DNA of 64,000 nt, from NCBI GenBank assembly GCA_029254745.1, contig JAQWWZ010000025.1, positions 1-64,000 of the forward strand. The letters are read 5' to 3'. The stretch comes from Opitutales bacterium. GTDB taxonomy: Bacteria; Verrucomicrobiota; Verrucomicrobiia; Opitutales; Seribacteraceae. A program made the position numbers and the translations under genes. A model generated the notes under the pieces. That model had not been told where the DNA came from. It saw only the letters and a list, made by a program, of their open reading frames with translations, and did not search any database. This document shows, piece after piece, positions 5,699-38,724 of this stretch. Each line of letters begins with the position of its first letter. The first letter of the stretch is position 1.

Positions 5699-5756
5699 GA
5701 AGGAAGTAGAGGTTTTAATTTTGAATACTCAGAGAGATTTGTTTAATAGATCATAG

Positions 5757-5960: not shown

Positions 5961-5962
5961 CC

Positions 5963-5998: not shown

Positions 5999-6234
5999 CC
6001 ACTCATACTTCGAGAATGATGAAAATAAAATCTTCAAAAGCAGGCTTCGGTCGCTTCCAGTTATTTGTTCTGATTATCGCAATTGCCTTAGGCGTTATCT
6101 TATTGATTCCATTTTACAATTCTTATGTTGCATGCATGGAAGACGAAAAATGCAAGCTATCCAATTCAACTTGCAAAAAAGCAACCGTGGACGAACCCGA
6201 TCGCAATCAAAGCAAGGATACACGAACCCCCTAG
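5995..6234 (+). CDS. Small hypothetical membrane protein
   Basis: It has 79 residues from the ATG at 5995; a TTG at 5947 in the same frame would add 16. I do not recognise a family. After a basic N-terminus (KIKSSKAGFGR) there is one strong hydrophobic segment (FQLFVLIIAIALGVILLIPF), then a tail with three cysteines (CMEDEKCKLSNSTC) rich in charged residues. This would fit a signal-anchor with a periplasmic cysteine-containing tail. The start is uncertain because only the preceding 11-codon frame has a good Shine-Dalgarno. It lies between another one-TM ORF and a VTT-domain protein. Confidence 0.45.
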   Translation: MTTHTSRMMKIKSSKAGFGRFQLFVLIIAIALGVILLIPFYNSYVACMEDEKCKLSNSTCKKATVDEPDRNQSKDTRTP

Positions 6235-6252
6235 TCCCATTACTCTTACATT

Positions 6253-8134: not shown

Positions 8135-8140
8135 AAGTGC

Positions 8141-8968
8141 TCAAGATATAAATTTTTCCACAACCATTCCTTTTTCTTTTAAGCCTATGGTTCTGTACAA
8201 GTTATCGCTCTTTAGATAGTCACTAAATATAAGGCAGCGACGATACCCATGCTTACGGCCTAAATCGATTGCGTTTCTTATCAATTTTCTGCCAATTCCC
8301 GTTCCCCTGTCATCAGGGTTTACATATACCATATTAAGGACGGATGAATTTGGAGTGTGCCTCCCAAATCCAGCCATTCCCTTGGTTTGGCCATTTCTAT
8401 CCTTAAAAAGATAAAGATGACCTTTTTTCTGCATATCTTTTGCTAATTGAATGGATTTGTACGGGTCTAGTGGAGGTATAGATTCGGCAGCAAAAGCTTT
8501 TGCCCAGAGAGCAACACGCGGCCACTGCTTGTCTGTGGCCACGATTAGACTAGTTTGATCTTTTGGAAAATAATCCTTTTCAAAGGATTCAAAAATATAA
8601 AAGCTTTTTAGGAAAGAAATGTTGATTTTGGGATTTAATTTCTTCCATTCCTTCAAAAAAGATTCCACTTCCAAGGTAGGCCCAAAAATCCCTCCAAGTT
8701 TTACTTTTTTTCGTGCCAAGTGTTGTGCCAAATGTTTTGAGGCCCTTTGATGGCCCGAAGAAAGAAAAAGATAAGAGGTGTGAGAAATCAAAGCACTTAA
8801 GCAAATGGTATGATTTTGAAAAATATTTCCCATCCATTTGGGTCCTGGCTGACTTTGGTGATTTTTTGTAAATTCCCAAAATAAACTATTGAGGGACTCT
8901 TTTTTTTGCCAATATTTTTCTGACTTTTTTCGAAAAGAATAAATCGATGAATAGCTTTGTGTTTTCAT
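8141..8968 (-). CDS. GNAT-family N-acetyltransferase with an extra N-terminal domain
   Basis: It has 275 residues. The C-terminal third carries a GNAT fold: a beta-strand with LNMVYVNPDDRGTGIG, where the acetyl-CoA pyrophosphate loop R-G-T-G-I-G is clear, then KLIRNAIDLGRKHG and LYRTIGLKEKGMVVEKF. The first about 150 residues look like a degenerate second GNAT-like half (SHTSYLFLSSGHQRASKHLA; GIFGPTLEVESFLKEW), as seen in two-domain acetyltransferases. The substrate is unknown. The gene is monocistronic, convergent with xseA and divergent from purM. Confidence 0.8.
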   Translation of the reverse strand: MKTQSYSSIYSFRKKSEKYWQKKESLNSLFWEFTKNHQSQPGPKWMGNIFQNHTICLSALISHTSYLFLSSGHQRASKHLAQHLARKKVKLGGIFGPTLEVESFLKEWKKLNPKINISFLKSFYIFESFEKDYFPKDQTSLIVATDKQWPRVALWAKAFAAESIPPLDPYKSIQLAKDMQKKGHLYLFKDRNGQTKGMAGFGRHTPNSSVLNMVYVNPDDRGTGIGRKLIRNAIDLGRKHGYRRCLIFSDYLKSDNLYRTIGLKEKGMVVEKFIS

Positions 8969-9043
8969 AAAACGATAAACTTAATACTTTTTACAATTTG
9001 CCATCGTAATTAGTTTCCTTCAAGTAAGACATCACTACTTAAA

Positions 9044-10234
9044 ATGAACTCATCTCAAAATAGATATAACCAAAGGGGCGTTTCTTCGAGTAAAGAAGAA
9101 GTGCATAAGGTTGTGGACCATATGGATCGCGGCCTTTATCCCGGTGCTTTCTGTAAAATCACAAAAGACTTACTAACAGGAAATGATAACTTGTGCAATG
9201 TGATCCATTCGGATGGGGCAGGCACGAAATCCATCTTAGGATATCTTTGGTATAAAGAAACTGGAGACCCCAAGGTCTTTCATGGCATTGCCCAAGACAG
9301 CGTTGTCATGAATCTTGACGACCTTGCATGTGTGGGTATCTGGGATCGTATCGTTCTGTCAAGCACGGTGAATCGAAATGCTCGCAATTTCCCAGGCGAA
9401 GTTCTCGCATGTCTGATTGAAGGAACAGAAGAATTTTTACAAACCCTGAGAGATCTTGGTATTAATGTCGAAAGTGGAGGAGGGGAAACTGCAGATGTCG
9501 GAGACCTTACTGGTACCGTTGCGGTTGATTCCTGTGCGGTTGCTGTTGCTCGAAGAGGTTGCGTTATCAACAACCAAAATATTGTTCCAGGTCTTTCCAT
9601 TGTTGGGTTTTCATCTTCCGGAAAAGCATCTTATGAATCCGAGGAAAATAGTGGTATTGGCAGTAATGGGCTTACCAGTGCAAGGCATGAACTTCTCTCT
9701 AAGCATTATTTTGAAAATTATCCTGAAACCTACGACCCGGTAACCGATCCGCAGTATATTTACTGCGGCCCCCATCGCATGCAGGACTCCCTTCCTGACT
9801 CCAACCTCTTAGTAGGAAAAGCTCTCCTAAGCCCGACACGAACATATTTACCTCTTGCCAAGACAATTATGGATGAAATCGGTGGCAGTAAAGTTCGGGG
9901 CTTTGTCCACTGTTCCGGGGGAGGCCAAACAAAATGCATGCGCTTTGGGCATGAGGTACACCACATTAAAGATAATTTATTTGAACCTCCTGCTTTATTT
10001 AAAGAAATTCAAAAAGTATCGGGCACAACTGACCAAGAAATGTACCAAGTCTACAATATGGGCCACCGTTTCGAAGCATACTGTACACCTGATGCGGTTG
10101 ATTCCCTTATAAGCATTGCTCAATCCTTTGGTATCGAAGCCCAGGAAATTGGTCGCACTGAACCTAGTAAATTATCGGATAATCAAAACCATTTGAATAT
10201 TGAGGTTAAGGGAAATACCCTTATCTATTCCTGA
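9044..10234 (+). CDS. purM: Phosphoribosylformylglycinamidine cyclo-ligase (AIR synthase)
   Basis: It closes the imidazole ring (FGAM + ATP to AIR) in purine synthesis. Supporting motifs are HSDGAGTKS (ATP/substrate loop), [26 protein letters not shown] and, late in the protein, CSGGGQTKC and [11 protein letters not shown]. At 396 residues it is about 50 longer than E. coli PurM and resembles the longer bacterial variants. It starts at ATG 9044 and is followed 18 bp later by purine nucleoside phosphorylase, so the two are probably one transcript combining de novo synthesis with salvage. Confidence 0.93.
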
Positions 10235-10252
10235 AAAAATTAGGCATGTCTC

Positions 10253-11083
10253 ATGCAGGCAACTATTGAAAAAGCAGTAAGTTTTATTCACAGGGAATGG
10301 GGTACTTTCAGCCCAATGACTACCTTAATTTGTGGGTCTGGTTGGGGAGAAGTAACCCAAGCATTTTCAAGCATGCAGACCCTCCCTTATTCTGATATCC
10401 CCGGTATGAGTAAGCCAACAGTTTCTGGTCATGCGGGGAAGCTTTTGCTCGTTGAGCAAAATGATCAGAAAATTCTTATTTTTCAGGGGCGTCGTCATTT
10501 TTATGAAGGAGCAGGGTGGGGACCCATTCAATTTCCTGTTCTTCTTGCTTATGCTTTGGGAACTAAAGTGCTTTTTCTAACCAATGCAGCAGGAGGTATT
10601 TCTTCTGATTTTCAAGTTGGAGACCTTATGGTTCTAGAAGATCATCTCAATTTCATGCCTGGTAATCCTTTAATCGGTCCTATACTCCACCCCGATATAC
10701 CGCGGTTTCCCGATCAATCCGAAGTATACGATCGTACACTTCAAGACCAAATCTTGAAGATTGGATCATTCCATCATATCAAAATTCATCAGGGTTGTTA
10801 TCTCGCACTATCGGGTCCTGGATTTGAGACTCCTGCCGAGATAAAAGCATTTGCCAATCTTGGAGCGGATGCCGTGGGCATGTCAACTGTTCCAGAGGCG
10901 ATGATCGCGAATGCTTTAGGAATGAGAGTCGTTGGGCTTTCCTGCATTAGCAATTTAGCGGCAGGCAAGGGAATTCATCCACTCAGCCATCAAGATGTAG
11001 AGAACACATCCATTCAGGCACTTCCAAAAATGAAAAAAATTATTCTCGAGTTCACATCGAAGAAACACCATAATAATTCCTAA
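10253..11083 (+). CDS. Purine nucleoside phosphorylase
   Basis: It is a trimeric-type PNP (PNP/MTAP superfamily) that cleaves inosine/guanosine with phosphate to the base and ribose-1-phosphate. The 276 residues fit the family. Motifs include the phosphate-site ICGSGWG, SGHAGKLLL, GRRHFYEG, LTNAAGGI, the base-site region SGPGFETPAEIKAF with MSTVPEAMIA, and CISNLAAG. It lies 18 bp after purM and 24 bp before hisI. The start is ATG 10253. Whether it is best called punA, deoD or xapA-like cannot be settled here, so no symbol is given. Confidence 0.92.
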   Translation: MQATIEKAVSFIHREWGTFSPMTTLICGSGWGEVTQAFSSMQTLPYSDIPGMSKPTVSGHAGKLLLVEQNDQKILIFQGRRHFYEGAGWGPIQFPVLLAYALGTKVLFLTNAAGGISSDFQVGDLMVLEDHLNFMPGNPLIGPILHPDIPRFPDQSEVYDRTLQDQILKIGSFHHIKIHQGCYLALSGPGFETPAEIKAFANLGADAVGMSTVPEAMIANALGMRVVGLSCISNLAAGKGIHPLSHQDVENTSIQALPKMKKIILEFTSKKHHNNS

Positions 11084-11107
11084 ATTAAACGCATTGTTTT
11101 ACAACTT

Positions 11108-11518
11108 ATGAACCACCACGATCTAGAAGAAGGAAGCGAATTGCATCTCGATTTCACAAAGCTCAAAAAGGTAGCATCCTGCGGAGAAGATATTATCCCC
11201 GCCATTGCTCAAGATCATGAAACAGGAGAAGTGCTCATTGTCGGCTATGCCAATAAACTGGCTCTAGAAACCGCACAAAAGCAAAGAATGGCCACATTTT
11301 GGAGCACAAGCCGAAATGAGCTATGGATCAAAGGTGAAACCTCAGGAGACTATCTGGAAATTGTAGAAATCCGGGTAAACTGCGAACAAAATTCAATCCT
11401 CTACCGTGTCGTACCCAAAGGAAAAGGTGCCTGCCATACCAAAGACTCAGATGGCCGAGCAAGAAGTGGATGCTATTATCGAATAATGAGCGACACAGGG
11501 GAGTTACTTTTTGGATAA
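11108..11518 (+). CDS. hisI: Phosphoribosyl-AMP cyclohydrolase
   Basis: It hydrolyses the purine ring of PR-AMP in the third step of histidine synthesis. It is the stand-alone HisI form of 136 residues with no HisE fusion. Zn/Mg-binding residues are seen as VNCEQNSILYRV, ACHTKDSDG and SGCYYRI. The family core FWSTSRNELWIKGETSG is intact. Between the second and third cysteines there is a slightly longer loop (TKDSDGRARSG). It follows PNP in the same direction and may be cotranscribed with it; no other his genes are present in the window. Confidence 0.95.
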   Translation: MNHHDLEEGSELHLDFTKLKKVASCGEDIIPAIAQDHETGEVLIVGYANKLALETAQKQRMATFWSTSRNELWIKGETSGDYLEIVEIRVNCEQNSILYRVVPKGKGACHTKDSDGRARSGCYYRIMSDTGELLFG

Positions 11519-11541
11519 AGAGGAAGACTAGGTATTTACCA

Positions 11542-12375
11542 CTATCGAATTTTATTAGAGAAACTGCCTGGTCCGAGTCTTAATTCCTTGGATGTAGCCA
11601 TCTGAGGTTTAAGACCATATCCGATGGTTTGCTCAATAAGTCTCTTTGTTTCCACTAGGGGTACAACCTCGATTCTCTTTCTTTTGGTTGTTATAAATAT
11701 TATGCCTCTCTGCCGATTATTGACAGAAAAACTTTGAGCACCTGATTCTATATATTTCCCTTTTATATTTCGATAAATTAATATTTTTACCCGACTCTTT
11801 CCTTCGAAATCTTTGCTTTGTATAATGAGATTCTTTCCTGATTCTAAAGTAAACTTTTTAGAACCAGCTGCAATATACAGAGTCTCTTTAAATTGAGAAA
11901 ATATTTTGTAAGACCCCCAAGGAATCTCGTTTTGCGAAAAGGGTACAAGGTACCCATTATAATTCCCCTGTTGATCCGAAGGAGAAAAAAGGGCGATAAA
12001 CTCTTTTGTTGTATTAGGTGAAGCTGAAAAAGGAAGTTCTAAAAAAAAAGATGCTTTTTCCGGTTCATTATTGCCTTCCATCAAACCTACCTTCGATGAA
12101 GATGGATTTCTTTGCTGATGAAACTCAATATTTCCTGCCCCGTAATAAGCACACTTGCGGGACAAAGAGCCGTATGCGACACGAACCTGAGATTTTGTAG
12201 AATTCAAATCATGTAGATTGCCCCATGGAGCGTATACTAACGATCGCGAGGTCGGCTTTCCCCAAAAAACAGCGGAAAATAAAGCTGTTGGCTTAGGATT
12301 AGGGTCAATTTCCTCTGCATTTGTGTGAAATGCTAAAATTCCCAAGAACAAAATAATAACAACAAGATTTCTCAT
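11542..12375 (-). CDS. Secreted protein of unknown function downstream of the giant PilX-like gene
   Basis: It has 277 residues with a clear Sec signal peptide at the N-terminus (MRNLVVIILFLGILAFHTNA, cleavage near residue 20). The mature part has many short beta-prone stretches and basic patches, but no motif I recognise. A middle segment (GSYKIFSQFKETLYIAAGSKKF) recalls beta-sandwich or jelly-roll repeats, which is only an impression. It begins 32 bp after the stop of the 1728-residue gene on the same strand and is probably its operon partner, possibly an exported accessory or surface component. Confidence 0.7.
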   Translation of the reverse strand: MRNLVVIILFLGILAFHTNAEEIDPNPKPTALFSAVFWGKPTSRSLVYAPWGNLHDLNSTKSQVRVAYGSLSRKCAYYGAGNIEFHQQRNPSSSKVGLMEGNNEPEKASFFLELPFSASPNTTKEFIALFSPSDQQGNYNGYLVPFSQNEIPWGSYKIFSQFKETLYIAAGSKKFTLESGKNLIIQSKDFEGKSRVKILIYRNIKGKYIESGAQSFSVNNRQRGIIFITTKRKRIEVVPLVETKRLIEQTIGYGLKPQMATSKELRLGPGSFSNKIR

Positions 12376-12406
12376 TTTAATAGTTTAATAAATAAGAATG
12401 GAATCC

Positions 12407-15400
12407 TTAAACATCTCCGGCTTTCAACCATCGAAATTTTATAATTTTAAATTTTCGACCAAACCTCTGATTTACCCCCATCCTAGATACCGTAACGGCA
12501 TTATTGGTCGCGTCTTCCTCATCAGGATCTTTGGTGAGTGGCAAATCAGATTCAAGCCCATCCGCAAATGTAGGATTATCTCCGGCTAAATTAGGGTAAG
12601 CATCAGATTTTTGCTGGGTGGTTCCATCTCTAGTTCTCGTAACGCTATCTTGATTTAAATCAATCCAATGCTCCTTTATCTCGGGATCCCAGTAGCCATT
12701 GAAGTTTCTGTCCTCAAAAGGCTCATGGGGACGATGATGTGGATTATCTTGGTCAGGTTTCACATAATCTGGAATTCTCTGCACTGTTAGTTCAATCCAT
12801 GCTTTTGACTTAGTTTTAGAAGAATACCTATCATTGCTCTCATCCGTGTTTTGGGCTTCATCAAAAGTCTCACCCATAACTCGGACAACAAAGGTATCAG
12901 ATCGGACTGAAGTTACTGGCGCCAACGGACTAAGGAGATCGGATTGCATAACCCACCCCGGCTTGTTTGCTGCTGTCGCCACATTTTCAACCGCAAGTAA
13001 ATTCTCTGGGGCATCTCCATATGAAAAAGTATTAGAATAATTTAGATATACCCTTTTCAGTTCCAATATTTTTCCCGCTGATGGAGAATATGACTTAATG
13101 GGTATTTGAGATTCTAAACTTACACCTTTACCCCATTTTTGTCTGCGTTCTGGATAATTAAATTTATTTCGAGAAACCGCATGTATCCCAAATTCAAAGG
13201 GTAAAAGATTCATTTCAGATGCTAGTGGAGGAGAGGAACTAGATACACTATTCCCATAAAATCTATTATTGGGAATAATGGGTATAAAAGAATCAGTAGA
13301 ATTATTGCTTAACCCACCATGATTTAAATTAGATTCTGCTATCGCTGCTTGGACTGCCCCCCTCAAACCCAGGCTTGAAGATCTAGTTTCTAACTCCTTT
13401 TGGTTTCCCCACTCTTCAAGAGGGTATATAAATAAGTTAGTCTTCATACCTTGAAGACGGCGATTAGCGAAATCAGAATAGGATAAAAAGGGCCCTCTTA
13501 GTTTAATTTGTTCAACTAGTTTATGAGACAATATATTAATTTCTAGATCGCTTAATTTACGCAATGTATTCCAAGAATTACTTGTTGCACTTTTATGCTC
13601 CAAAAATCGTGGAACAGGGGTTACTTCTGGTTCAACCACAACACCTTGCATTGCTTGGCCTCTCAGAGATGATATGTGACTAGCCCAAGCATCTACGGAT
13701 GTTGAATTAACATTAAATTGACCGTTAACCAGGAGATCCCCAGCTAAAGTTTGGTAACGAAAATCTGAATCTGTACCAGATGCAGCAAGCTCTTCATTTT
13801 TATCAGCATAACTTGTGATCCTTGGCTCGCCATCTCTAAAGAAAGGGATAAGCCGAGGGTTTCGATATGGTAAATACCGTTTGCCCGGCTCAAACAAACT
13901 AGAATCTTTTTCATCCCACTCTGGATCATTTCCTAAACCAGACATAAAATAACCGTCCAGCAAGGCAAAATTGAGGTAAAAACTATGATCTAGTGTTACA
14001 TTTTGATGATCTTTTCCAACATGAGTGTCTCGGATCGGATCATCATAAGAAACAATTTTATTTAACCATGGAAAATAGTTGTATTCTGCACCATCACTAA
14101 GCCAAGTTTTGGCAATATCTATGTTTTCCAGAATATTCATAGAGCCAAACACAGGGACTTCATCAAAAGCTTTCATTTTACCCCATGTTTGATAGCGAGG
14201 AACCAAAGTAGATGCATAAGAATTTCCTAAAGAATACGATGGCCCGTGAGAATAGTTATTTAAATTCGCGTGGCGAAATTGTAATATCGAGAGCAACGGA
14301 GATTTTGGTAATTCAAACATGATCGCATTTTTTTCTGCTTTCATTGGACTTAATTCATCATAATCATGAAAAAAACCAACGTAAGTATCAAATGCCTTAA
14401 CCCTTGGCATTACCCCTAGGTCAGGATTAACATATTCAGCCGTCGGCGAAAGAGGATTTAAATCTGGGTCATAAAAATTTGGATATTTTTGAATACGGCG
14501 ATTTTTTTCAGCAAAGAAAAAATTATCCTGTCCTTGGTTATGAAGCTTAGGGGTGTAAAATGAACTATGTGAATCAAATCGGCTGATAACATCCCAATTG
14601 CTTCCATACCCATCCTGGTTACTGCTAACAAGAGCTCGTATATTAAATTGCTCAAAAACAACACTTTCTGCTTTTGCAGGAAACTTAAACCGTAAAATAA
14701 AACCATAACCTGGTAAGGTTTTACCATTTGGAACTTCCAAGGCCTCTGAACTTTCATAGTAATAATTTTGCGTCGGAGTGGTCAGATTAAAATGTTTATT
14801 TATTTTGCCTATAATTTTCCTATTTTCATAACTAACATTTTTAGGGTTTTCTGAATAAATTGTAATACCCTTAGGTTGCTCTAACATGCTACTTTGGAAT
14901 TTCAATCCAGAAGAATTAAAGGTCTCGGTTGAATTTGGGTGAACCCCATTGATATCACCAAATGTGTCCTGTGTTGCGACAGGGTCAGAAGTAGGAGTAA
15001 TAGAATTTCCAGACAAGAGCAGGGCAGGAGTATCTTCTACTCCTGAAATAAGCTTAGTAAGCTCAACTTCAAGGAATTTGGTTTCTCCGGATACAGGGAG
15101 AGGAGAATGCTGAATAGTTTGCTTACTACCAACGGTAAAGTGAGCTTTTTCGCCTGCTTCTAGTTGCAAATTAGGGATTCGTAAAAGTAAATGTCTATTC
15201 CCAAAGGATGATGAGTTATCTGAATTACTTGAATGCAAAAAAGTAACATTTATCTTTTTCCCCAATTTATTGCCTACAAAACTCCCGTAGGTGGGTAAAC
15301 CTTCTGCCCATTCCACTTCTTTATTGAAGGGGGGGGAGTTAAAAAAAGTGTAAAAGCGTCTTAAATAAGGAGGAAGTAAACTTGGCCCTCTACCATTTGG

Positions 15401-17593
15401 GTCAATCACAATACGGGGGAAAGTTTTTTCACCAGGGTCTTGTATTCCATTTCCATTTTTATCATCGAAGGTTTTTGATGTTGGTATCAGAACACCGGAG
15501 GATGGATCTTCATCTAAAGGATCAATGGTAGGATGTTTTAATCTAAACAAATCAATATCAACAACACTCATGAACCACTTTCTGTAATAATCAAAATGCT
15601 TTGCGTTAAGTGCTGAGAATTGAACCGTAAAAGGAATTTCGATGAACAAATTCTTGCTGCTTATAGGAACATCATAGGGATTCCAAAACGCAACCGACGG
15701 GTAAATAGCTAAACCTATTTGGTTTTGATCAAAAATTGGGTGCTGAGAATATTTAACTTCAACGAGTACAGGCTGTATCGGGTGATTTTTAGGCTCTGGC
15801 CTTGTTTCTAAACCCTTAAAATAATTGAAATACTTTCTGAGCTCTGAGCTTTTTGTTATCGATGGACTGTTGCCAGGGCTGTTGGGTTTTACCCCGTAAG
15901 GCAGCAGGTGATTAAACAAAACATTATTATCACCCACAACTCGAGGAAAGTCAGTGGGGTGAATATCACCATAATTAGATGCCAAATACAAATTATGGAA
16001 TGCACCTAGCGTTGACCACCTTGGTCCTGCTAGTAGAGCGTGCTCTTCAAGCATGAGTTGATTACTGCTACTTGTACGCCAATCATTTAACAAAGCATTG
16101 ATCTGTAAGGGCACACTTTTTTGGTAGTAAATTCGCTGTTTGTACACGTAATTGCTAAAATCATCGGCCCATACATCAGAAATATCTGCTAGGTTCCCCC
16201 AATCATCTTCATTGGCAAAGGCACTGCTTAAATCTCTCTTAAGACCTCCTGTCCTCACATCACTGAGTACACCGAAAGAGTCAGTAGTGAGGAAGTGGTA
16301 ATAAGGGCTTACTTTTGTGCTCTCTGCCACTTCATTGGCTAACATACCTAAAGAAAAGATATTGCTCCGCTGAGCATCGGTAAATTCGCTGTCCCATTCC
16401 AAGCCAAATCCACTTTTCAAACCAGTAGAGCTTCCACTACCCTCATTAGCAAATGCCAGGTTTGGCTCAGTTGCCACACTAAGATTGTCTTTTTTTTGCT
16501 GAAGGTCCGTACTTTTTTTGCTTGGATTAAAAATAGTCATATTGGTTTTGACTCCTTCATCTCCAACCCAATAAGCATAGGCTCCGTACTTGCTTTCCTT
16601 ATTATCTTTTTGATTATTTTGTATGCGAGTCTTTCTCACTTTTATTGGTTCTGCACCAAGAAAATTTTCCCAATTTTCTGGATTCTTTGGATCATAACCA
16701 TCCTTCAATAACGGTGCCTTGAGGATCCACTCCACATCGTCAGATACTTCCGGATCGGGCAGGTTATAAAGTGGATGATTATATCCAGGAAGATTATCGC
16801 TCAAATCCCGAAGAACGGGAGAATTGGTTGAGTTTAGAAGGCTATACTCGTAATCTTCCCAAGGATTCTCTGCCGATCCGTAGACCCCACCTTTAATAAA
16901 TCCCCGGCCATTATCAGGCTGGTTTGTATCCCAAATATTTCCATCCGGTATTTCAACAAATTCTGCAAGTTGATTGAGGCTATTTCCAAAATACATTTTT
17001 TTACTAAACCCTTCATTACCACTTACTAGCCATGCAATTTCGATTGCGGGGTGAGGATCAAATTCTGCACTTGTCATTGGAACTGAATTCTTTTCCTCCG
17101 GATACTTATCTCCTGTATCCAAGTTCTCAGGCAAGGGTTTCGCCCCTAATTTATTTTGGTCAACGCCACGATCCCTGCCACGCTGCTTCCATACTCCAGT
17201 CCAATATCTTTGGCCAAATGGTAGTGGGTCAATATTGCCATTTTCATTAAGATCAACCCCTGTCGGAGTAATCTGATCCTCTTCGTAATTTTGGTCTATA
17301 AAGTTCATGCCGGACTCGATACGCTCATCTAGAAGATCAGCTGTACCCGAAATACGCATATCCGGCCCTAAATGTTTTTGGATTTCCCCAATTGCAATCT
17401 GCATACCCATTCGGGCATGGGCTTGTGCCAGAATCTTCACTTTTCTTGCCTCTACTAAACTTAGATCTGTGCTCACTAAGTTGACCAAGGAAATAACCAA
17501 CAAAAAAACAAGGCTGAGTAATGCCAAAGCTAGAACTAATGCAAATCCTTGCTTCTTACAATCTCGACTGTAATTGAATCTGGACTCAAACAT
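12407..17593 (-). CDS. Giant PilX-like / Verru_Chthon cassette protein A-type surface protein
   Basis: It has 1728 residues. The N-terminus is pilin-biogenesis-like: a short basic leader (CKKQGF), then one long hydrophobic helix at residues 18-41 (LVLALALLSLVFLLVISLVN) and an alpha-helical continuation ending in AHARMGMQIAIGEIQ, as in PilX/minor pilins and the verrucomicrobial 'cassette A' proteins. There is no G-F-x(3)-E cleavage motif. The large exported body has Ca-binding-like loops of the DxNxNGxxD type at residues 114-122 (DLNENGNID), about 705-718 (KNGNGIQDPGE) and about 1622-1637 (DRNFNGYWDPE). Family assignment rests on recognition of the N-terminus and the size. In described cassettes A-D genes are adjacent; here only a C-type partner is found, 4 kb away. 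Confidence 0.75.
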   Translation of the reverse strand: MFESRFNYSRDCKKQGFALVLALALLSLVFLLVISLVNLVSTDLSLVEARKVKILAQAHARMGMQIAIGEIQKHLGPDMRISGTADLLDERIESGMNFIDQNYEEDQITPTGVDLNENGNIDPLPFGQRYWTGVWKQRGRDRGVDQNKLGAKPLPENLDTGDKYPEEKNSVPMTSAEFDPHPAIEIAWLVSGNEGFSKKMYFGNSLNQLAEFVEIPDGNIWDTNQPDNGRGFIKGGVYGSAENPWEDYEYSLLNSTNSPVLRDLSDNLPGYNHPLYNLPDPEVSDDVEWILKAPLLKDGYDPKNPENWENFLGAEPIKVRKTRIQNNQKDNKESKYGAYAYWVGDEGVKTNMTIFNPSKKSTDLQQKKDNLSVATEPNLAFANEGSGSSTGLKSGFGLEWDSEFTDAQRSNIFSLGMLANEVAESTKVSPYYHFLTTDSFGVLSDVRTGGLKRDLSSAFANEDDWGNLADISDVWADDFSNYVYKQRIYYQKSVPLQINALLNDWRTSSSNQLMLEEHALLAGPRWSTLGAFHNLYLASNYGDIHPTDFPRVVGDNNVLFNHLLPYGVKPNSPGNSPSITKSSELRKYFNYFKGLETRPEPKNHPIQPVLVEVKYSQHPIFDQNQIGLAIYPSVAFWNPYDVPISSKNLFIEIPFTVQFSALNAKHFDYYRKWFMSVVDIDLFRLKHPTIDPLDEDPSSGVLIPTSKTFDDKNGNGIQDPGEKTFPRIVIDPNGRGPSLLPPYLRRFYTFFNSPPFNKEVEWAEGLPTYGSFVGNKLGKKINVTFLHSSNSDNSSSFGNRHLLLRIPNLQLEAGEKAHFTVGSKQTIQHSPLPVSGETKFLEVELTKLISGVEDTPALLLSGNSITPTSDPVATQDTFGDINGVHPNSTETFNSSGLKFQSSMLEQPKGITIYSENPKNVSYENRKIIGKINKHFNLTTPTQNYYYESSEALEVPNGKTLPGYGFILRFKFPAKAESVVFEQFNIRALVSSNQDGYGSNWDVISRFDSHSSFYTPKLHNQGQDNFFFAEKNRRIQKYPNFYDPDLNPLSPTAEYVNPDLGVMPRVKAFDTYVGFFHDYDELSPMKAEKNAIMFELPKSPLLSILQFRHANLNNYSHGPSYSLGNSYASTLVPRYQTWGKMKAFDEVPVFGSMNILENIDIAKTWLSDGAEYNYFPWLNKIVSYDDPIRDTHVGKDHQNVTLDHSFYLNFALLDGYFMSGLGNDPEWDEKDSSLFEPGKRYLPYRNPRLIPFFRDGEPRITSYADKNEELAASGTDSDFRYQTLAGDLLVNGQFNVNSTSVDAWASHISSLRGQAMQGVVVEPEVTPVPRFLEHKSATSNSWNTLRKLSDLEINILSHKLVEQIKLRGPFLSYSDFANRRLQGMKTNLFIYPLEEWGNQKELETRSSSLGLRGAVQAAIAESNLNHGGLSNNSTDSFIPIIPNNRFYGNSVSSSSPPLASEMNLLPFEFGIHAVSRNKFNYPERRQKWGKGVSLESQIPIKSYSPSAGKILELKRVYLNYSNTFSYGDAPENLLAVENVATAANKPGWVMQSDLLSPLAPVTSVRSDTFVVRVMGETFDEAQNTDESNDRYSSKTKSKAWIELTVQRIPDYVKPDQDNPHHRPHEPFEDRNFNGYWDPEIKEHWIDLNQDSVTRTRDGTTQQKSDAYPNLAGDNPTFADGLESDLPLTKDPDEEDATNNAVTVSRMGVNQRFGRKFKIIKFRWLKAGDV

Positions 17594-17651
17594 AGGGCTG
17601 TTAAAACTTGAGCCCTTTTACTAAGATTCGCAACTCTTTTGAGAATTTAGA

Positions 17652-19376
17652 TTAGCGAGAAGGGATTGCGCTAATATCTTCTTCAGAAGGCCAAAACATT
17701 TCGATATCATCAATATTTGGTATCGTTCGTGGTCGAACGACCCTAAATCCGACAAATAAGGCGTCTGTATGATACCATACGCTTTTGGGAATTTGAGGGT
17801 CTTGTTGCTTCCACGATTCTTCAGAGCCCAAGCGGGCTGCACTCCGGTGGCTTTTTGACCCATCGTCCCAAGATCCTCCTTTGACTGTTCGAGAATAGAG
17901 AGAGTCAGGCAAATTAAGCGGATCAACTAAAACCTCTGCTCGTACCGTTTTGGATGGAGGAACAAATTTGTCTAGCACCCACTCCCAAACATTGCCATGC
18001 ATATCATACAAGCCAAAGGGGTTGGGTGATTTTTGGCCAACTTTTTGGTACTGAAATCGACTATTCCCAAGATGCCAGGCATGATTCGATAATTCACTGG
18101 CGTCATCCCCGAAACTGTACACTGTATTTGTACCAGCCTTACAGGCATACTCCCACTCCGCTTCTGTAGGCAAACGGTAAAACTTTCCTGTTCGAGCACT
18201 CAACCACATGCAGTACATTTTAGCCGAAAGTTGAGTCATACATATGGCAGGGTATCCTCGTTTCCCCATTCCAAAACTCATGTCAGTGTAAGGGGATGTA
18301 GGCTTGGTTACAGCATCAGATAATTCATCTGCAGGCGTAGATTCGATTTTATTGTATTCTCGGTTATCTTTATCTAGGTTGATCATCCACAATTCATACT
18401 CGTCCCAAGTAACTTCATACTTTCCCATCCAAAAATCAGAAACTTTTACAGGATGGAAAATATGTTCATCTTCTCCACGTTCTGGGTCATCTGCTTGGCT
18501 TCCCATGCTAAACTCCCCGCCTTTAATGGGCATCATTTCAAAATCTAGATCTGATGTTTTGATAGATTGATGGTAAGATGAGAAATCATCTTGTATCTCT
18601 CCGCTTTTAAACCCTAGTTCTTTATATAAATCCTTAGGCAGCATACCCAAAAGAGTGAAACTCTTTTTTTGAGGAGATAAGGTAATATCTTTCGGCCAAT
18701 CTGCTCCCTCCTCAATCCAGCGACGTAACATGAATAAATCTGTGGAGGATAACGGGTCATTGCCTTCTGGAGGCATAAACATTTCATCATCTTGGGGTAA
18801 TGTACAGAGAACATATAAGTCACTATCCAAAGGCTTACCCGGTACAATAACATGATCGGACTCAAATGCATGCTCATAACTATCCAACCTTAAATCTCCT
18901 TTAACATTTCCGTCATAATGACAAGATACACAACTGAGTTCTAGAATAGGTTGAACATCTTCAACAAAAGAAATTTTCTTAGGAAGTCTTTTCTTTGTTT
19001 CCAGCACGATACCATCTGGCCAGGCTGCCCCATCCTCAATCCACTGCTTAAGGATTATTTTCTCCGCGTTTGTAAGGGGATAATCTTTGTCCACATTTTT
19101 TATCGGCGGCATAAATAATTCATCATCTTGAGGAAGGGTTGTCGTCCAATAAAGTGAACTATCTTCTGCATTACCTGGAATGATTAAGTCCTCACTTTCA
19201 AAAACAAATTTCTTTTCATCTAATCGGATATCACCTTTTGCATTATCCTCCCGGTGGCAACTCACACAATTGTGCTCCAAGATGGGCTGTACATCTCTCA
19301 CAAAATCAATACGAGCGTTTACCGCTTGTAAGCCAAAGATAAGGAGACTAAAAAAACTTAGGATGTGTAATTTCAT
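17652..19376 (-). CDS. Secreted fusion: two planctomycete-type cytochrome c modules plus FGE/sulfatase-modifying-factor-like domain
   Basis: It has 574 residues with a signal peptide (residues 1-21). Two tandem repeats of about 110 residues each carry one c-type haem motif: CVSCH at 37-41 and CVSCH at 149-153. Each also has DVQPILE before the motif and F-M-P-P further on (a candidate axial Met). These match the PSCyt1 domain common in planctomycetes and verrucomicrobia. From about residue 282 to the end is an FGE/SUMF1-like fold: GGEFSMGSQADDPERGEDE, RLPTEAEWEYACKAG, GLYDMHGNVWEWVLD, KGGSWDD and the final VGFRVVR. The cysteine pair of true formylglycine-generating enzymes is not seen at the C-terminus, so it is probably a binding domain or other FGE-fold protein. 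It is exported, probably periplasmic. Confidence 0.85.
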   Translation of the reverse strand: MKLHILSFFSLLIFGLQAVNARIDFVRDVQPILEHNCVSCHREDNAKGDIRLDEKKFVFESEDLIIPGNAEDSSLYWTTTLPQDDELFMPPIKNVDKDYPLTNAEKIILKQWIEDGAAWPDGIVLETKKRLPKKISFVEDVQPILELSCVSCHYDGNVKGDLRLDSYEHAFESDHVIVPGKPLDSDLYVLCTLPQDDEMFMPPEGNDPLSSTDLFMLRRWIEEGADWPKDITLSPQKKSFTLLGMLPKDLYKELGFKSGEIQDDFSSYHQSIKTSDLDFEMMPIKGGEFSMGSQADDPERGEDEHIFHPVKVSDFWMGKYEVTWDEYELWMINLDKDNREYNKIESTPADELSDAVTKPTSPYTDMSFGMGKRGYPAICMTQLSAKMYCMWLSARTGKFYRLPTEAEWEYACKAGTNTVYSFGDDASELSNHAWHLGNSRFQYQKVGQKSPNPFGLYDMHGNVWEWVLDKFVPPSKTVRAEVLVDPLNLPDSLYSRTVKGGSWDDGSKSHRSAARLGSEESWKQQDPQIPKSVWYHTDALFVGFRVVRPRTIPNIDDIEMFWPSEEDISAIPSR

Positions 19377-19448
19377 AAGAAGGTGTAATTCTATAATAAT
19401 TAGTTCTTTATCTCAAAATTTAAAGCAAATGAAAAGGATATTCAACCT

Positions 19449-20468
19449 GTGACACCCCGTTTAAATATGGCTTCCTTGCACTTAAAATTAAGGATTATAA
19501 TACTACTTTTGCCTTTGTTCTTACTCAGAGCAAAAGAAAACCAATACTTAACATTTTCTGAAAAGTGTATGGGGACAGAATTTAAAATTATTATAGATGA
19601 TGCAAATGAATCCCTTTGTAAATTAGCTACTAATCAAGCTTTCGAAGAAGCTCACCGGTTAGATCTTATGTTTAGTGACTACCTTTCCAATAGTGAGGCT
19701 TCAACTTTGTCAGCTTCCTCTTATACCAATCAAGGTAATCAGTTTCAGGAGGTATCTTCTGAATTTTTTAAAATCCTTAAATTTTGCCAGAGCCTTTCCG
19801 TAAAAACCAATGGTAAATTTGATATCAGTGTTGGACCAGCCTCTCGTCTTTGGAGAATTGCTCGATTCAGGAAAACGATGCCCAAGGCTTCCAAAATAGC
19901 AAATGCACTTTCAAGAATTGGTTATAACAAAATAATCCTGCATCCGGTTGAGTCAAAGGTGTGCCTGAACCAAGAAGGTATGCTGCTTGACTTTGGAAGT
20001 ATCGCCAAAGGGTATGCAGGGGATCAAATGCTATTGATCTTAAAAAAACATGGATTAATTCATAGCCTGATTGATACCGGTGGGGATTTAGTTATTGGGC
20101 AAGCCCCAAGAGGTAAAACAGGATGGAGGGTGGAAATTGGAGGTGATAAACACCCAGAACTTCCAACCTTAAACTTATCAAATTGTGCCGTTGCCACCTC
20201 TGGCGATATCGAACAATTTGTCACCATCCATGGCAAAATTTATTCTCATATAATCGATCCTAGTAGTGGAATTGGAATTAACGAAAGAAAGCAAGTCACC
20301 GTCATTGGAGAAAGTGGAATGGTCGCCGACTCCATGGCCTCGGCTGCTTTAATCTGCGGACCGAATTATTCTGAAAAGATTTTGGCCCAATATGAAATTG
20401 AATCAGCTTTTTTTATTACTCAACAAAATGGATTTAAAAAACTAGACCAGTACAAATGCAAGCGATAA
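19449..20468 (+). CDS. apbE: FAD:protein FMN transferase
   Basis: It covalently attaches FMN to Thr/Ser of exported flavoproteins (for example Rnf/Nqr subunits and FMN-binding-domain proteins) and acts outside the cytoplasmic membrane. It has 339 residues from GTG 19449, which has AAAGGA about 9 bp upstream; ATG 19467 is an alternative. An N-terminal signal-type helix is followed by the ApbE motifs MGTEFKIIID, GKFDISVGPASRLWR, LDFGSIAKGYAGD, DTGGDLVIG, SHIIDPSSG and MVADSMASAALICG with the metal/FAD-site Asp. It lies divergent from the dihaem/FGE fusion. Its flavin-acceptor protein is not obvious in the window. Confidence 0.93.
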   Translation: MTPRLNMASLHLKLRIIILLLPLFLLRAKENQYLTFSEKCMGTEFKIIIDDANESLCKLATNQAFEEAHRLDLMFSDYLSNSEASTLSASSYTNQGNQFQEVSSEFFKILKFCQSLSVKTNGKFDISVGPASRLWRIARFRKTMPKASKIANALSRIGYNKIILHPVESKVCLNQEGMLLDFGSIAKGYAGDQMLLILKKHGLIHSLIDTGGDLVIGQAPRGKTGWRVEIGGDKHPELPTLNLSNCAVATSGDIEQFVTIHGKIYSHIIDPSSGIGINERKQVTVIGESGMVADSMASAALICGPNYSEKILAQYEIESAFFITQQNGFKKLDQYKCKR

Positions 20469-20529
20469 GCTTTAAACTTGTAACACTAGTAAAAATGATA
20501 CATAAACAGACCTTACCCATTTACTAGAT

Positions 20530-20760
20530 ATGTCAAGAATTTGTGCAATTACTGGAAAACGTCCTGTTACAGGCGGAAAAATTATTCATAAAGGTGTCAG
20601 CAAGAAAGCTGGTGGAATCGGCTTACAGTTGGTCAAAAACAACAAACGTAAGTTCCGCCCGAATCTGCAGCGAATCCGGATAAAGCTCCCATCTGGCCAA
20701 GTCAAACGCATGTGGGTTGCAGTCAAGGCTATCAAAGCCGGTAAAATCCTCAAAGCCTAA
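20530..20760 (+). CDS. rpmB: 50S ribosomal protein L28
   Basis: It is a 76-residue ribosomal large-subunit protein. The family start MSRICAITGKRPVTG and the ending RIKLPSGQVKRMWVAVKAIKAGKI are clear. No CxxC zinc ribbon is present, so this is the zinc-independent form. The gene stands between apbE and psd. A small inverted repeat follows its stop. Confidence 0.96.
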   Translation: MSRICAITGKRPVTGGKIIHKGVSKKAGGIGLQLVKNNKRKFRPNLQRIRIKLPSGQVKRMWVAVKAIKAGKILKA

Positions 20761-20768
20761 CACAACTT

Positions 20769-20787
20769 TAGCTGCACTCCTCAGCTA
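20769..20787 (+). terminator. Weak hairpin between rpmB and psd
   Basis: TAGCTG (20769-20774) and CAGCTA (20782-20787) form a 6-bp stem with a 7-base loop just after the rpmB stop. Only a short, interrupted T stretch follows (CTTTATAT), so this may be a weak terminator or attenuator rather than a full stop signal. Confidence 0.3.
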
Positions 20788-20802
20788 GTGCTTTATATAT
20801 AA

Positions 20803-21705
20803 GTGGAGGAAATTCATTATCTTAATCGTGCCACCGGCAAGGTTGAAAAAGAAGATATTTATGGAGAAAGTTGGCTTCGTTTCACCTACGAAAAACCCCT
20901 TGGAAAATTTTTTTTATGGTTACTCGTTAAACGCAAGATGTTTTCAGCTTGGTATGGATATCGGGCGAGTAGTGCCAGTAGTAAAGCTAGAATTCAGCCG
21001 TTTATAGAAAAGTTCAAAGTAAACAAAAAAGAATTTCTTGATTTTCCTGAGGACTACAAGACTTTCAATCAATTCTTTTATCGAAAATTAAAACCAGACG
21101 CTCGGCCCATTGATGATCGCAAAAATTCCATCGTTTTTCCTGCGGACGGCCGACATTTAGGATTTCAGGATATTTCTAAAGTTGATGGAATTTATGTTAA
21201 AGGTCAGACCTTTAATTTGAACAGCTTTCTTCAATCTTCCCAATTAGCAAAGGTTTTTCAGGGTGGAAGTTTGGTGATCAGCAGGTTATGCCCAGTTGAT
21301 TATCATAGGTTTCATTTTCCCGCTACAGGCGAATACAAAAATACTCGTTTAATTAATGGTTCCTTACACTCGGTTAGTCCAATTGCCCTAAAGCAAAATA
21401 TTTCTTTTTTTTGGCAAAATAAAAGGTATCTTTCTATTCTCGCAAGTAAATCTCTTGGTCAAGTGGCTCAAGTTGCAGTAGGAGCCACATGCGTAGGCTC
21501 TGCAACTTTCACTAGTCATGACTACAAAGATGTTAACAAAGGAGATGAGTGGGGTTATTTTTCTTTTGGAGGATCTTGCATAATTACCCTTTTCGAACGA
21601 GATAAAGTTTCTCTTTCCCAAGACCTCTTAGATGCGTCCCAAAACGGGTTAGAGTTGTACGCTAAAATGGGGGAAATAATGGGAACTGATAAAAAATTCG
21701 TTTGA
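20803..21705 (+). CDS. psd: Phosphatidylserine decarboxylase proenzyme
   Basis: It decarboxylates phosphatidylserine to phosphatidylethanolamine at the inner membrane and self-cleaves to form a pyruvoyl cofactor. It has 300 residues. The motif FPADGRH, the core CPVDYHRFHFPATG with the active His, and the processing region EWGYFSFGGSCIITLF are seen. The usual L-G-S-T cleavage site is here F-G-G-S, a known variation. The start is GTG 20803; there is no ATG for the next 45 codons. The gene overlaps the 5' region of the prepilin gene, whose preferred ATG lies 36 bp after this stop. Confidence 0.94.
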   Translation: MEEIHYLNRATGKVEKEDIYGESWLRFTYEKPLGKFFLWLLVKRKMFSAWYGYRASSASSKARIQPFIEKFKVNKKEFLDFPEDYKTFNQFFYRKLKPDARPIDDRKNSIVFPADGRHLGFQDISKVDGIYVKGQTFNLNSFLQSSQLAKVFQGGSLVISRLCPVDYHRFHFPATGEYKNTRLINGSLHSVSPIALKQNISFFWQNKRYLSILASKSLGQVAQVAVGATCVGSATFTSHDYKDVNKGDEWGYFSFGGSCIITLFERDKVSLSQDLLDASQNGLELYAKMGEIMGTDKKFV

Positions 21706-21740
21706 TTGAAACCTATTATTATTTACAACCTTATAATAAT

Positions 21741-22871
21741 ATGGGTTTCCTCAATCGGATCAAACATAGGAATTCGCATTCAGGATTCACTATCCTAGAG
21801 CTCCTTGTCGCCGTCTCGGTCACAGCTTTACTAGCTGCTATGCTGTTAAACATCACTTCGCAAGTTGTGTCTACTCAAACCAAGGCATCAGGAGATTTAG
21901 AAACGAACCAAGTTGCACAATTTATACTAGATAGAATCCAGGAAGATTTACAGTGTGCAATTTCAAGAAATGATGGAAATGTGTGGATGGCAGCAAAAAT
22001 ACTTACGGATGAGCTCAATAGTGGTTCTTGGGTAAGTTCAAAATCAGTAAACAAACCAAAGGAAGAATCCAAACGGGTGTTTATCGATGATTGGCCTGAC
22101 AACGCATGGCCGAGTGACCAAAAAGGTAAAAAGGATAAAGAACTTGCGGAAGCAAACCAGCAAGGTTCACTTGTTGACTCCAGATTTGGAGTTGGCGGCA
22201 CTTGGTTAAGGTTTTTCACGCAGGCACCAGAGTTAGACACTGCTATCCGAAATAGTGGAGAAGTTCGGGCCATTTCCTACCAGATTGTTAGATACGGGTT
22301 AACAGGTGCAGATACTTCTCGACCTCGATATCAATTATTTAGATCAGATGTAAGTGCAGAAAATACTTTTGATGCTGGGTTTAGTCTGCATCCAGTAGAT
22401 GGTAATTATAATTCCAATAATTCCAATAAACTGCGAGGGGCTAGTATTATCAAAAACCCGATATCGCAAGAGACTCAAGGGGAATCCCCAACAAGTTTTT
22501 CTCTTGCATCGAACATTATTGATTTTGGTCTTCGAACTTACATTTATCGAAAAAATAGTGACGGTGCTAGTTTTCTAAAGCAATTATTTCCGATCACTGA
22601 AAAAATGAACCATGAAGAAGAGTTTCTTGCAAGTACACATCAACCTTATCGTTCGAGTCCAAGCGATGCTTCGCTCAATGCCTTCCCCGAGGTTGTTGAT
22701 ATTATGATTCGTGTGTTAACCAGTGAAGGGGAGTCTGCTGTAAGCGCACTCGAAGAAGGGCTCACTCCTATACCTGAAGGGTATGAAGAAGGAGAATACT
22801 GGTGGCAATTAGTTGAAAGAAACTCAGATGTTTACACCAGAAGGATCAAAATCTTCTCAAGCTCTATTTAG
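21741..22871 (+). CDS. Type IV prepilin-like protein, Verru_Chthon cassette C-type
   Basis: It has 376 residues from ATG 21741; a TTG at 21702 would add 13. After a short basic leader, GFTILELLVAVSVTALLAAM at residues 15-34 is a classic prepilin signal: cleavage between G15 and F16, with Glu at mature position +5. The following helix and large body (ITSQ, QFILDRIQEDL, WLRFFTQA, YQIVRYGLTG) resemble the verrucomicrobial cassette C pseudopilins, which are large minor pseudopilins. It would be processed by a prepilin peptidase not present here. It lies directly after psd. Together with the giant PilX-like gene it suggests a pseudopilus or secretion role, but no assembly ATPase, secretin or platform gene is seen. 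Confidence 0.8.
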   Translation: MGFLNRIKHRNSHSGFTILELLVAVSVTALLAAMLLNITSQVVSTQTKASGDLETNQVAQFILDRIQEDLQCAISRNDGNVWMAAKILTDELNSGSWVSSKSVNKPKEESKRVFIDDWPDNAWPSDQKGKKDKELAEANQQGSLVDSRFGVGGTWLRFFTQAPELDTAIRNSGEVRAISYQIVRYGLTGADTSRPRYQLFRSDVSAENTFDAGFSLHPVDGNYNSNNSNKLRGASIIKNPISQETQGESPTSFSLASNIIDFGLRTYIYRKNSDGASFLKQLFPITEKMNHEEEFLASTHQPYRSSPSDASLNAFPEVVDIMIRVLTSEGESAVSALEEGLTPIPEGYEEGEYWWQLVERNSDVYTRRIKIFSSSI

Positions 22872-22879: not shown

Positions 22880-23653
22880 TTAAGCGAACCCTTTTTGCTT
22901 TCTATATTTTAAAGGTGTGACTTTCATCTGACGCCTAAAGTGTTGCGTAAAAGAACTCTGATCGTAAAAGCCATTGTCTTCTGCAATTTGAGAAAGCTTT
23001 TTCTTTGTGGTTAAAAGATCATCACATGCTGCCTCAATACGAGTTCTCGTAATAAATTGCATAGGGGCCACTCCAAAAAGTTCAATAAATCCACGATGCA
23101 GTTTTCTGTGATTTAATCCGGATACCTCTACAAGATTTGCAATTTCTAGGTTGGTCCGGAAGTTTCCACGAATATAGCTTACTGCTCGACCAATTTCATC
23201 ATCGCGCTCCCACTTTAAGTCTTGGTTATGCACAGGATTTTCTTCACCATATGGACGAACTGTACCAATAACTCCAACGACATTACCATCACTGTTTAAA
23301 AGCGGATATTTATTGGTGAGGTACCAATCGGGGAGTCCTTGGCTGTTAAAGACAAGCTCCAAGATGTTAAGCATCGGTTGCCTTGTATCAATAACTGTTC
23401 TGTCATCTTTACGAAAATGCTCAGCAAGGCGGGGAGGGAAAAGATCAAAGTCAGTTTTACCGTAAAGTTCATCGTTTGTAGCAACTCCAAGACGAGGAAG
23501 GAAACGTTTGTTTATGTGTAACAGACGATGGTTCGTATCTTTTATAAAAAATGAAACACCTGGTATATTTTCGAAGATCTGACAAATCTGCATAGGGTCG
23601 CAATCTTGCTCGCTAAACCATTTATTTATTTTGGGGCACAAAGATGAATTCAT
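22880..23653 (-). CDS. AraC-family transcriptional regulator with N-terminal PAS domain
   Basis: It has 257 residues from ATG 23653; a TTG at 23683 would add ten residues with two extra cysteines. A PAS fold at about residues 20-125 (IFENIPGVSFFIKDTNHR, YGKTDFDLFPPRLAEHF, YPLLNSDGNVVGVIGT) precedes a two-helix-turn-helix AraC DNA-binding domain at about 155-255 (LEIANLVEVSGLNHRKLHR; FYDQSSFTQHFRRQMKVTPL). It is likely a ligand- or redox-sensing activator. An inverted repeat overlaps its start region. It ends 8 bp from the convergent prepilin gene. Confidence 0.88.
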   Translation of the reverse strand: MNSSLCPKINKWFSEQDCDPMQICQIFENIPGVSFFIKDTNHRLLHINKRFLPRLGVATNDELYGKTDFDLFPPRLAEHFRKDDRTVIDTRQPMLNILELVFNSQGLPDWYLTNKYPLLNSDGNVVGVIGTVRPYGEENPVHNQDLKWERDDEIGRAVSYIRGNFRTNLEIANLVEVSGLNHRKLHRGFIELFGVAPMQFITRTRIEAACDDLLTTKKKLSQIAEDNGFYDQSSFTQHFRRQMKVTPLKYRKQKGFA

Positions 23654-23654
23654 T

Positions 23655-23736
23655 TTATCACAATAGTGACAACCCCTGCTCAATACAATGAAAATTTGAT
23701 TTGGTAATATTGTTATTTTTTACTAAAACGTGATAA
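23655..23736. promoter_or_regulatory. Candidate operator: TTATCAC/GTGACAA inverted repeat plus distal GTGATAA
   Basis: TTATCAC at 23655-23661 and GTGACAA at 23666-23672 form an inverted repeat with a 4-base spacer and six of seven matching positions. They lie immediately upstream of the PAS-AraC start codon. A further GTGATAA copy lies at 23730-23736 in the same spacer. The position suggests autoregulation by the AraC protein, but this is inferred from location only. Confidence 0.3.
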
Positions 23737-38687: not shown

Positions 38688-38724
38688 TTTGCTTTCTTTC
38701 CAATGCGACCTACAACGCATTATC

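Follow-up and report, generated by a model that had tools for sequence, protein, structure and literature searches.

A giant GspK-like pseudopilin and its exported partner as candidate tip proteins of a second type IV filament in an Opitutales bacterium

Introduction

In type IV filaments, a subunit without glutamate at position 5 (Glu5) caps the tip complex (PMC10191384). GspK/XcpX, the minor pseudopilin at the tip of the type II secretion system (T2SS) (PMC6211770, PMC10191384, PMC8179133), has been described as a pilin whose sheet holds an inserted domain (PMC8179133). Modular pilins carry added domains, the most extreme by this measure named in a 2021 survey having 860 residues (PMC8179133), and PilY1 exemplifies a non-pilin partner at the tip (PMC10191384). 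The Kil pili of Myxococcus, with four exchangeable tips, are an earlier example of one pilus that can bear more than one kind of tip (PMC12075869). Here we analyze a stretch of 64,000 nucleotides, called the window (bases 1-64000 of the 190 kb contig C54, JAQWWZ010000025.1, of an Opitutales bacterium, assembly GCA_029254745.1), which encodes a giant 1728-residue GspK-like protein, designated A.

The assembly (G000 among the genomes numbered below) comprises 2.45 Mb in 72 contigs and is 96.5% complete; those of its near relatives that are named are Opitutia/Opitutales metagenome-assembled genomes (MAGs). Besides A, the genes considered encode S, a 277-residue partner; C, a prepilin; and CytFGE, a 574-residue haem/FGE fusion. 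Labels g1 to g4 denote genera of near relatives, L numbers denote loci, and G numbers denote genomes. It is moderately likely that a second type IV filament, separate from the T2SS and with its genes dispersed over the genome, has A as its K-type and C as its J-type minor pilin. A search of titles and the opening lines of abstracts found no such pseudopilin or minor-pilin system in Verrucomicrobia, and no paper was found on the Verru_Chthon cassettes; subscription journals and preprints lay outside both searches.

Results

A is a GspK-like protein of unusual size

A reaches no Pfam or NCBIfam cut-off, matches no Pfam family at E <= 0.01, and is unlisted at that level for the GspK equivalog model NF037980 (cut-off 130 bits). 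Its match to TIGR02600 scores 16.2 bits against a cut-off of 332.3 and pairs residues 16-74 with the first 59 model positions only. Among 38 homologues of A, matches below threshold are found to TIGR02600 in 24 (best E 6.9e-8) and to NF037980 in 19 (best E 9.1e-7); scores against the latter are 19.2 bits for L166, 13.6 for L145 and 26.3 for the best A-sized frame. The only Pfam matches in this set are two, each in a single member, one of them to PilX_N. A search of PDB sequences with a profile of A gave no match up to E 1. Aligned by hhalign to 28 GspK proteins of relatives (334-492 residues), A gives E 1.3e-6 over the N-terminal 78 columns. Its conserved internal block opens with a motif resembling NiNtAs of GspK, a non-significant similarity (E 0.24).

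The fold was modelled on a full-length homologue of 1082 residues from an isolate, Cerasicoccus maritimus (L166), by AlphaFold with 59 sequences. The model (pLDDT 72.5, pTM 0.80) has a 59-residue N-terminal helix and C-terminal strands, with a very large middle region between them. VIA-align returned four entries (five chains) at Z >= 8, all of them GspK/XcpX, the next entry standing at Z 2.7. The best chains are 6utu_C (Z 13.7, rmsd 3.1, 229 of 261 residues aligned), 5vtm_X (Z 13.3, rmsd 3.2, 227 of 259), 9a1f_T (Z 13.2, rmsd 3.4, 262 of 295) and 3ci0_K (Z 13.0, rmsd 3.1, 245 of 280), with 88-89% of each target aligned. These matches begin at model residue 32-68 and finish at 1078-1082, so that both ends of A are predicted to form the GspK core. 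By length, residues beyond a GspK-sized core number about 790 in L166 and about 1450 in the window protein.

A prepilin leader with G or A at -1 is present in 58 of 59 aligned A proteins, the remaining row being gapped, and the residue at +5 is Glu in none of the 59, the pattern expected for a filament-capping subunit. Judged by the model of its homologue L166, A has the GspK fold while scoring below the GspK equivalog cut-off, and it is very probably a K-type, GspK-like subunit.

A is often followed by a conserved exported partner

In 57 distant loci (L117-L173), S is the next same-strand gene after A in 39, as detected by a profile built from other loci; recurrence of training sequences under other names among the 57 is possible. 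This is the usable figure, an earlier count of 58/75 having been circular, with its profile built from those same proteins. The profile finds six further matches among 620 other ORFs (open reading frames), each adjoining A or A's S. On a tree built from 65 A proteins, every large clade contains rows with S (by eye), so S looks old, with losses. Identities of A and S correlate weakly in Mantel tests (r 0.28 for 41 pairs, reached in 0 of 2000 permutations; r 0.12 for the 34 pairs from L117 onwards, 39 of 2000). The A-S pair is a persistent conserved unit. One g3 locus (L078, 6874-16172) has two A genes in tandem, then one S.

The model of window S (pLDDT 89.8, pTM 0.83) shows two beta-sandwich domains. 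Its best match is the extracellular domain of PepT2 (Z 12.0, rmsd 4.1, 178 residues aligned, 8% identity), and its second domain matches many Ig/transthyretin-like folds (Z about 7-9). The likeness to PepT2 and to other tandem Ig-like folds is one of fold only, with no functional link implied. Window S reaches no Pfam or NCBIfam cut-off. Scanning 57 S proteins against Pfam (E <= 0.01) yields a single match, to DUF4397 (E 0.0023), and no PilC beta-propeller domain; a PDB sequence search with the S profile gives one match, at E 0.52.

A and C probably correspond to the K and J subunits of a second pilin set

Prepilin-type N-termini over the Pfam cut-off number 11 in the window genome: four in the T2SS operon on contig C40, four in tandem on contig C47, one each on contigs C64 and C33, and protein C. 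C itself scores 16.6 bits against the GspJ model TIGR01711 (cut-off 64.85). The relevant comparison is to locus L119, from an Opitutae MAG, where six consecutive pilin genes stand in the T2SS order G-G-H-I-J-K, as read from profile matches, position and length. Searched against the 13 pilin-like proteins of the window genome, to which set the E-values refer, these find as best matches C47_216 for G (65.2 bits, versus 27.3 for the T2SS GspG), C47_239 for the second G (33.1), C47_232 for H (36.9), C47_244 for I (18.8), C for J (98.8) and A for K (123.7). An HMM of the C family matches L119 J at 150.5 bits in segments 11-104, 120-278 and 309-365 of 370. By this comparison C represents a J-type subunit of a second pilin set, homologous along its length to L119 J. 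Given the correspondence with the L119 operon, A most likely serves as K and C as J in a second set, with G, G', H and I encoded on C47.

An initial annotation had placed A and C in the A and C types of the verrucomicrobial cassettes, with types B and D not seen. Neither assignment holds, as A stays at 16.2 of 332.3 bits and C at 24 of 256.5 bits against TIGR02599, over the first 59 model positions only; searches of the genome with TIGR02600 and TIGR02599 put nothing over cut-off, and Verru_Chthon membership was rejected. Counterparts of the supposedly missing pilins are found on C47. The wider suggestion of a pseudopilus-like envelope module does stand, A and C being joined in one pilin set by the L119 operon.

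Among the 37 genomes of family f1, A and the C47 I-type pilin occur together in 28 (weakly in G014), A alone in 4, the pilin alone in 3 and neither in 2, absences too few to test. Immediately behind the L119 operon (5655-14602) comes a block of ribosomal-protein genes (rpsL-like, by eye). In the window rpmB is flanked by A and C, and L140 also has rpmB near A.

Candidate machinery and the T2SS alternative

A T2SS operon on C40, with G, H, I and J, GspK behind them, E, D and other parts, is apparently complete (by eye). Parts of a second machinery were found elsewhere, as the initial annotation had suggested looking for pilus ATPase, platform and secretin genes: contig C18 encodes a tandem pair of MshEN-domain ATPases together with a T2SSF platform, and contig C54, at 161-169 kb, encodes PilM, two proteins without assignment and a 1189-residue secretin. 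At L090 (1837-5256, on C18) the tandem MshEN-type assembly ATPases and the T2SSF gene lie near a coaE-like gene (by eye); among the matches listed, tandem ATPases of this type appear as pairs across many genomes of the order. Behind the PilM-secretin cluster (L197, 11222-19991; C54 at about 169.2-178 kb) runs an open-ended ORF of at least 2923 residues, whose first 1200 residues match C-type lectin over cut-off and reprolysin-like peptidases below it; it might serve the second filament as cargo or as a surface protein.

Of 20 order-level genomes, 10 have a strong A match (A6 profile, E < 1e-8); among the matches listed, the tandem ATPase pair occurs in 9 of these and in 1 of the other 10 (Fisher p 0.001), a post hoc comparison of related genomes. 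In the exception, G043, one ATPase is accompanied by another ATPase-like ORF that is partial. GspK matches without a strong A match occur in G040, G044 and G049. On balance, these distributions favor the second machine over the T2SS, and it is rather likely that A belongs to that second filament.

The alternative that survives best, still unlikely, is that the T2SS itself uses A and C as alternative tip subunits, swapping them with GspK and GspJ to load particular substrates such as sulfatases. The apparently complete T2SS with its own GHIJK speaks for it, as do genomes with many A genes, each at its own place, and few GspK (12 A versus 2 GspK-length matches in G046, 7 versus 1 in G054). The count of A also tracks the count of sulfatases, taken as first-look candidates, with rho 0.45 over 57 genomes and rho 0.62 across the 20 order-level genomes versus 0.29 for genome size and 0.50 for T2SSE matches. 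Over all 57 genomes of the relatives set, however, A count tracks genome size as well (rho 0.52), and A is present in G051 with no sulfatase match and in G043 with one weak match; G038 and G041, also with 0-1 sulfatase matches, have weak A matches. Also opposed are the J and K of L119, standing with G, G', H and I that match the C47 pilins and not those of the T2SS, the ATPase contrast with its post hoc limits, and the genomes with GspK and no strong A. A-S type pairs at L080, L082, L077 and L078 lie among sulfatase-like and esterase-like genes (read from N-termini). The idea of sulfatase cargo that these neighbors raised was not adopted, A being found also where sulfatase matches number 0-1, and is kept as part of this alternative.

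Conservation of the gene neighborhood

Table 1. Features of the A locus, in window coordinates.
Feature	Position	Strand	Remarks
S, exported partner, 277 aa	11542-12375	-	signal-peptide-like start (by eye); two Ig-like beta-sandwich domains (model); 31 nt behind A
A, giant GspK-like putative tip (minor) pseudopilin, 1728 aa	12407-17593	-	predicted leader cleavage G16/F17; no Glu at +5
A residues 1567-1610	12764-12895	-	aligned to C-terminal strands of homologue model, within GspK match
A residues 1286-1425, conserved internal block	13319-13738	-	FNVNSTS ... RGPFLS..DF.NRR; served for counting A genes
A residues 17-75, N-terminal pilin helix	17369-17545	-	stretch matching GspK profile of relatives (78 columns, E 1.3e-6)
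CytFGE, exported, 574 aa	17652-19376	-	PvdO/FGE-like domain plus two PSCyt1 (CxxCH) domains; precedes A by 58 nt
ApbE-family FMN transferase	19449-20468	+	divergent from CytFGE; taken as a neighbor
rpmB	20530-20760	+	identified by eye; identity to relatives 84-96%; housekeeping, outside module
psd	20803-21705	+	housekeeping neighbor, outside module
C, probable J-type minor pilin, 389 aa	21702-22871	+	N_methyl 26 bits (cut-off 21.2); translation probably starts at ATG 21741
PAS-AraC regulator	22880-23683	-	convergent with C; adjoins C in g1/g2

All ORFs that the initial annotation had reported here are present at their positions (Table 1), and its view of rpmB and psd as housekeeping genes in between is kept. 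By layout, CytFGE, A and S form an operon on the minus strand, with ApbE, rpmB, psd and C on the plus strand. In a survey of near relatives, 40 loci were searched and 34 had an A-type match (counts by eye). Among orthologous g1/g2 loci, CytFGE adjoins A in 20 of the 20 showing that side, and 16 of 19 have S behind A. All 14 that extend far enough have ApbE-rpmB-psd-C next, but unrelated housekeeping genes are kept there too. About 30 kb is syntenic in these genera with its housekeeping genes equally kept, so the synteny is unspecific for the genes of the module. The gene order, kept in related genomes, is not chance. The two g3 loci keep ApbE, CytFGE, A and S, with rpmB, psd and C not adjacent, and all three g4 loci fetched keep only A and S, CytFGE and ApbE standing beside A in none. 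Paralogous A loci in g1 genomes (L080, L082, L083) are without CytFGE. Tblastn searches up to 10 kb on each side in the 57 distant loci found ApbE in 0, psd in 0, rpmB in 1 (L140) and CytFGE in 2 (partial matches several kb off, never adjacent to A). For C there were two matches, one adjoining A in L119 and a weak N-terminal one in L140. The conserved neighborhood that a synteny check was to look for thus exists for A-S and, within the family, for CytFGE-A, and does not extend to ApbE or psd in distant loci.

Median identities to the window in g1/g2 are 33% for S, 41% for A, 47% for ApbE, 55% for psd, 56% for C, 74% for CytFGE and 88% for rpmB. Two unrelated genes of the block, for a helicase (36%) and an acetyltransferase (37%), diverge as fast as A and S, and the argument that divergence marks these two as surface-exposed was therefore dropped.

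That A-S, CytFGE, ApbE and C are unrelated genes on a slowly rearranging chromosome, C being tied to psd by position only, appears quite improbable. Such chance neighbors would fit the broad g1/g2 synteny, the place of C on the other strand behind psd, the scarcity of C beside A in distant loci, and a scan for promoter-like and terminator-like sites, which found no excess over shuffled sequence. The adjacency of J and K in the L119 operon and the persistence of A-S pairing in distant loci argue to the contrary.

Least of all do we expect the extracytoplasmic redox device of haem, covalent flavin and pseudopilins that the initial annotation had proposed, a reading favored by the constant g1-g3 neighbors (CytFGE adjoining A in 20/20 g1/g2 and 2/2 g3 loci, ApbE next wherever g1-g3 loci reach so far) and by two CxxCH motifs in CytFGE, and rejected on the loss of CytFGE and ApbE beside A in g4, where S stays, and in the 57 distant loci, on Pfam and NCBIfam scans showing no redox family in window A or S, and on the absence of any FMN_bind (PF04205) protein found in the 96.5%-complete genome. 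The acceptor for ApbE (PF02424, 211.7 bits, cut-off 25.6) that was to be sought thus did not appear; an FMN_bind protein is present in 17 of the 57 genomes of the relatives set.

CytFGE has two PSCyt1 domains with one CxxCH each (by eye), so that two haem motifs are confirmed and the term multihaem was an overstatement, plus an FGE-sulfatase domain (PF03781, 143.1 bits). Its nearest solved sequence is PvdO. The stretch GGSWDDGSKSHRSAAR contains no Cys, as read by eye; a catalytic cysteine pair marks sulfatase-activating FGE. Linked to A in three genera of the family, CytFGE may belong to the operon, and a role in maturing or anchoring A is a possible conjecture.

The PAS-AraC protein is a possible regulator. 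Its median identity in g1/g2 is 74% versus 56% for the convergent, more variable C. At Rfam gathering scores only tRNA is found. Elsewhere in the window (38689-44133, plus strand), an 1814-residue double-length UvrA-like protein with two ABC and two UvrA-interaction stretches lies beside tRNA-Glu.

Distribution of the A family

A is found in 43 of the 57 genomes of the relatives set, the window genome included. The A6 profile has a match in 42 of the 57, with 1-3 per genome in 40, some of these being two pieces of one gene. A ORFs reach 1989 residues. Cultivated Verrucomicrobiota with A-S include Cerasicoccus maritimus and Haloferula luteola. In the GTDB collection at least 560 places with A were confirmed by tblastn. 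Of 78 GTDB loci kept, all have titles naming Verrucomicrobiota groups except L097 and L163 ("Bacterium"); L097 comes from a "Porticoccaceae" MAG, and its match is 43% identical to the window's.

Discussion

The proposed filament would take its G, G', H and I pilins from C47 and its J (C) and K (A) from the window, with candidate machinery on C18 and at 161-169 kb of C54. A prepilin peptidase would trim the leaders, whose motif is seen. By analogy to the minor pilins of the T2SS and of type IVa pili, A, without Glu5, would sit at the distal end and start assembly with I and J, its extra 1450 or so residues thereby being displayed at the tip, and the filament would pass through the second secretin. 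S, presumably exported by Sec, would most likely attach to or cap the part of A on display, in a PilY1-like role, since it is encoded directly behind A in many lineages; capping in particular is plausible, if somewhat short of an even prospect. The tip most likely would contact or capture external ligands. Of this scheme, gene layout, the fold of an A homologue, the absence of Glu5, the best-match correspondence of the pilins and the A-S pairing were computed.

Several findings weigh against this proposal. Beyond the N-terminus, profile similarity of A to GspK is non-significant (best E 0.03-0.24) and was not counted. Foldseek, while ranking GspK first for the L166 model, does so at a non-significant E of 0.087; that homologue is only 24% identical to window A, and 257 of its 1082 residues have pLDDT < 50. 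The pairing of L119 I with C47_244 is weak at 18.8 bits, with E-values drawn from a 13-sequence set. C stands beside A in just 1 of 57 distant loci; no S is detectable behind A in 18 of the 57, L119 is without one, and S is missing in 3 of 19 near-relative loci. A tandem ATPase pair without A occurs in G033, of the same family and 91% complete. The fast divergence of A (41%) and S (33%) is unspecific, the helicase and acetyltransferase reaching 36% and 37%. Cooperation of the C47 genes with those of the window, and their use of a given machinery, are inferences.

Compared to GspK/XcpX (3ci0, 5vtm, 6utu), A shares the prepilin leader, the lack of Glu at +5, a fold assembled from both ends and, by operon, I and J partners. 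It differs in length, about 1000-2000 residues versus 334-492 in relatives' GspK, in belonging to a second pilin set, in often having S behind it, and in falling below the NF037980 cut-off. Likeness to Verru_Chthon cassette proteins A, C and D (TIGR02600, TIGR02599, TIGR02596) is confined to the N-terminus, mostly the first 30-60 model positions, and no protein scored individually reached their cut-offs. A-S resembles modular pilins, and type IVa pili with their PilHIJK-PilY1 tip, in a large pilin-borne module, likely at the tip, and in a non-pilin tip partner, whereas A ORFs of up to 1989 residues exceed the 860 of the survey and S has no PilY1 domain. In the Kil (Tad) pili of Myxococcus, too, a single genome holds several paralogous tips made of minor pilins whose end domains vary, although Tad-type KilLMN trimers contrast to a GspK-type A with a non-pilin S, and exchange is conjecture here.

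More tentatively still, each A-S pair across the phylum might be an exchangeable giant tip, made up of a GspK-type head and the Ig-like partner that goes with it. Such heads, from up to 12 A genes in a genome, might compete to cap one shared type IV filament. If so, one machine would serve many ligands or cargos.

The analysis gives a structural identity to a large family, at least 560 places in GTDB, that has no Pfam model among the members scanned, and attaches to it a conserved and hitherto uncharacterised partner, S. It describes a filament subunit set that appears scattered over one genome and is kept as a single operon in a relative, L119. Large tip proteins on a filament are suggested for Verrucomicrobiota, and contact with particles or polymers through them becomes testable.

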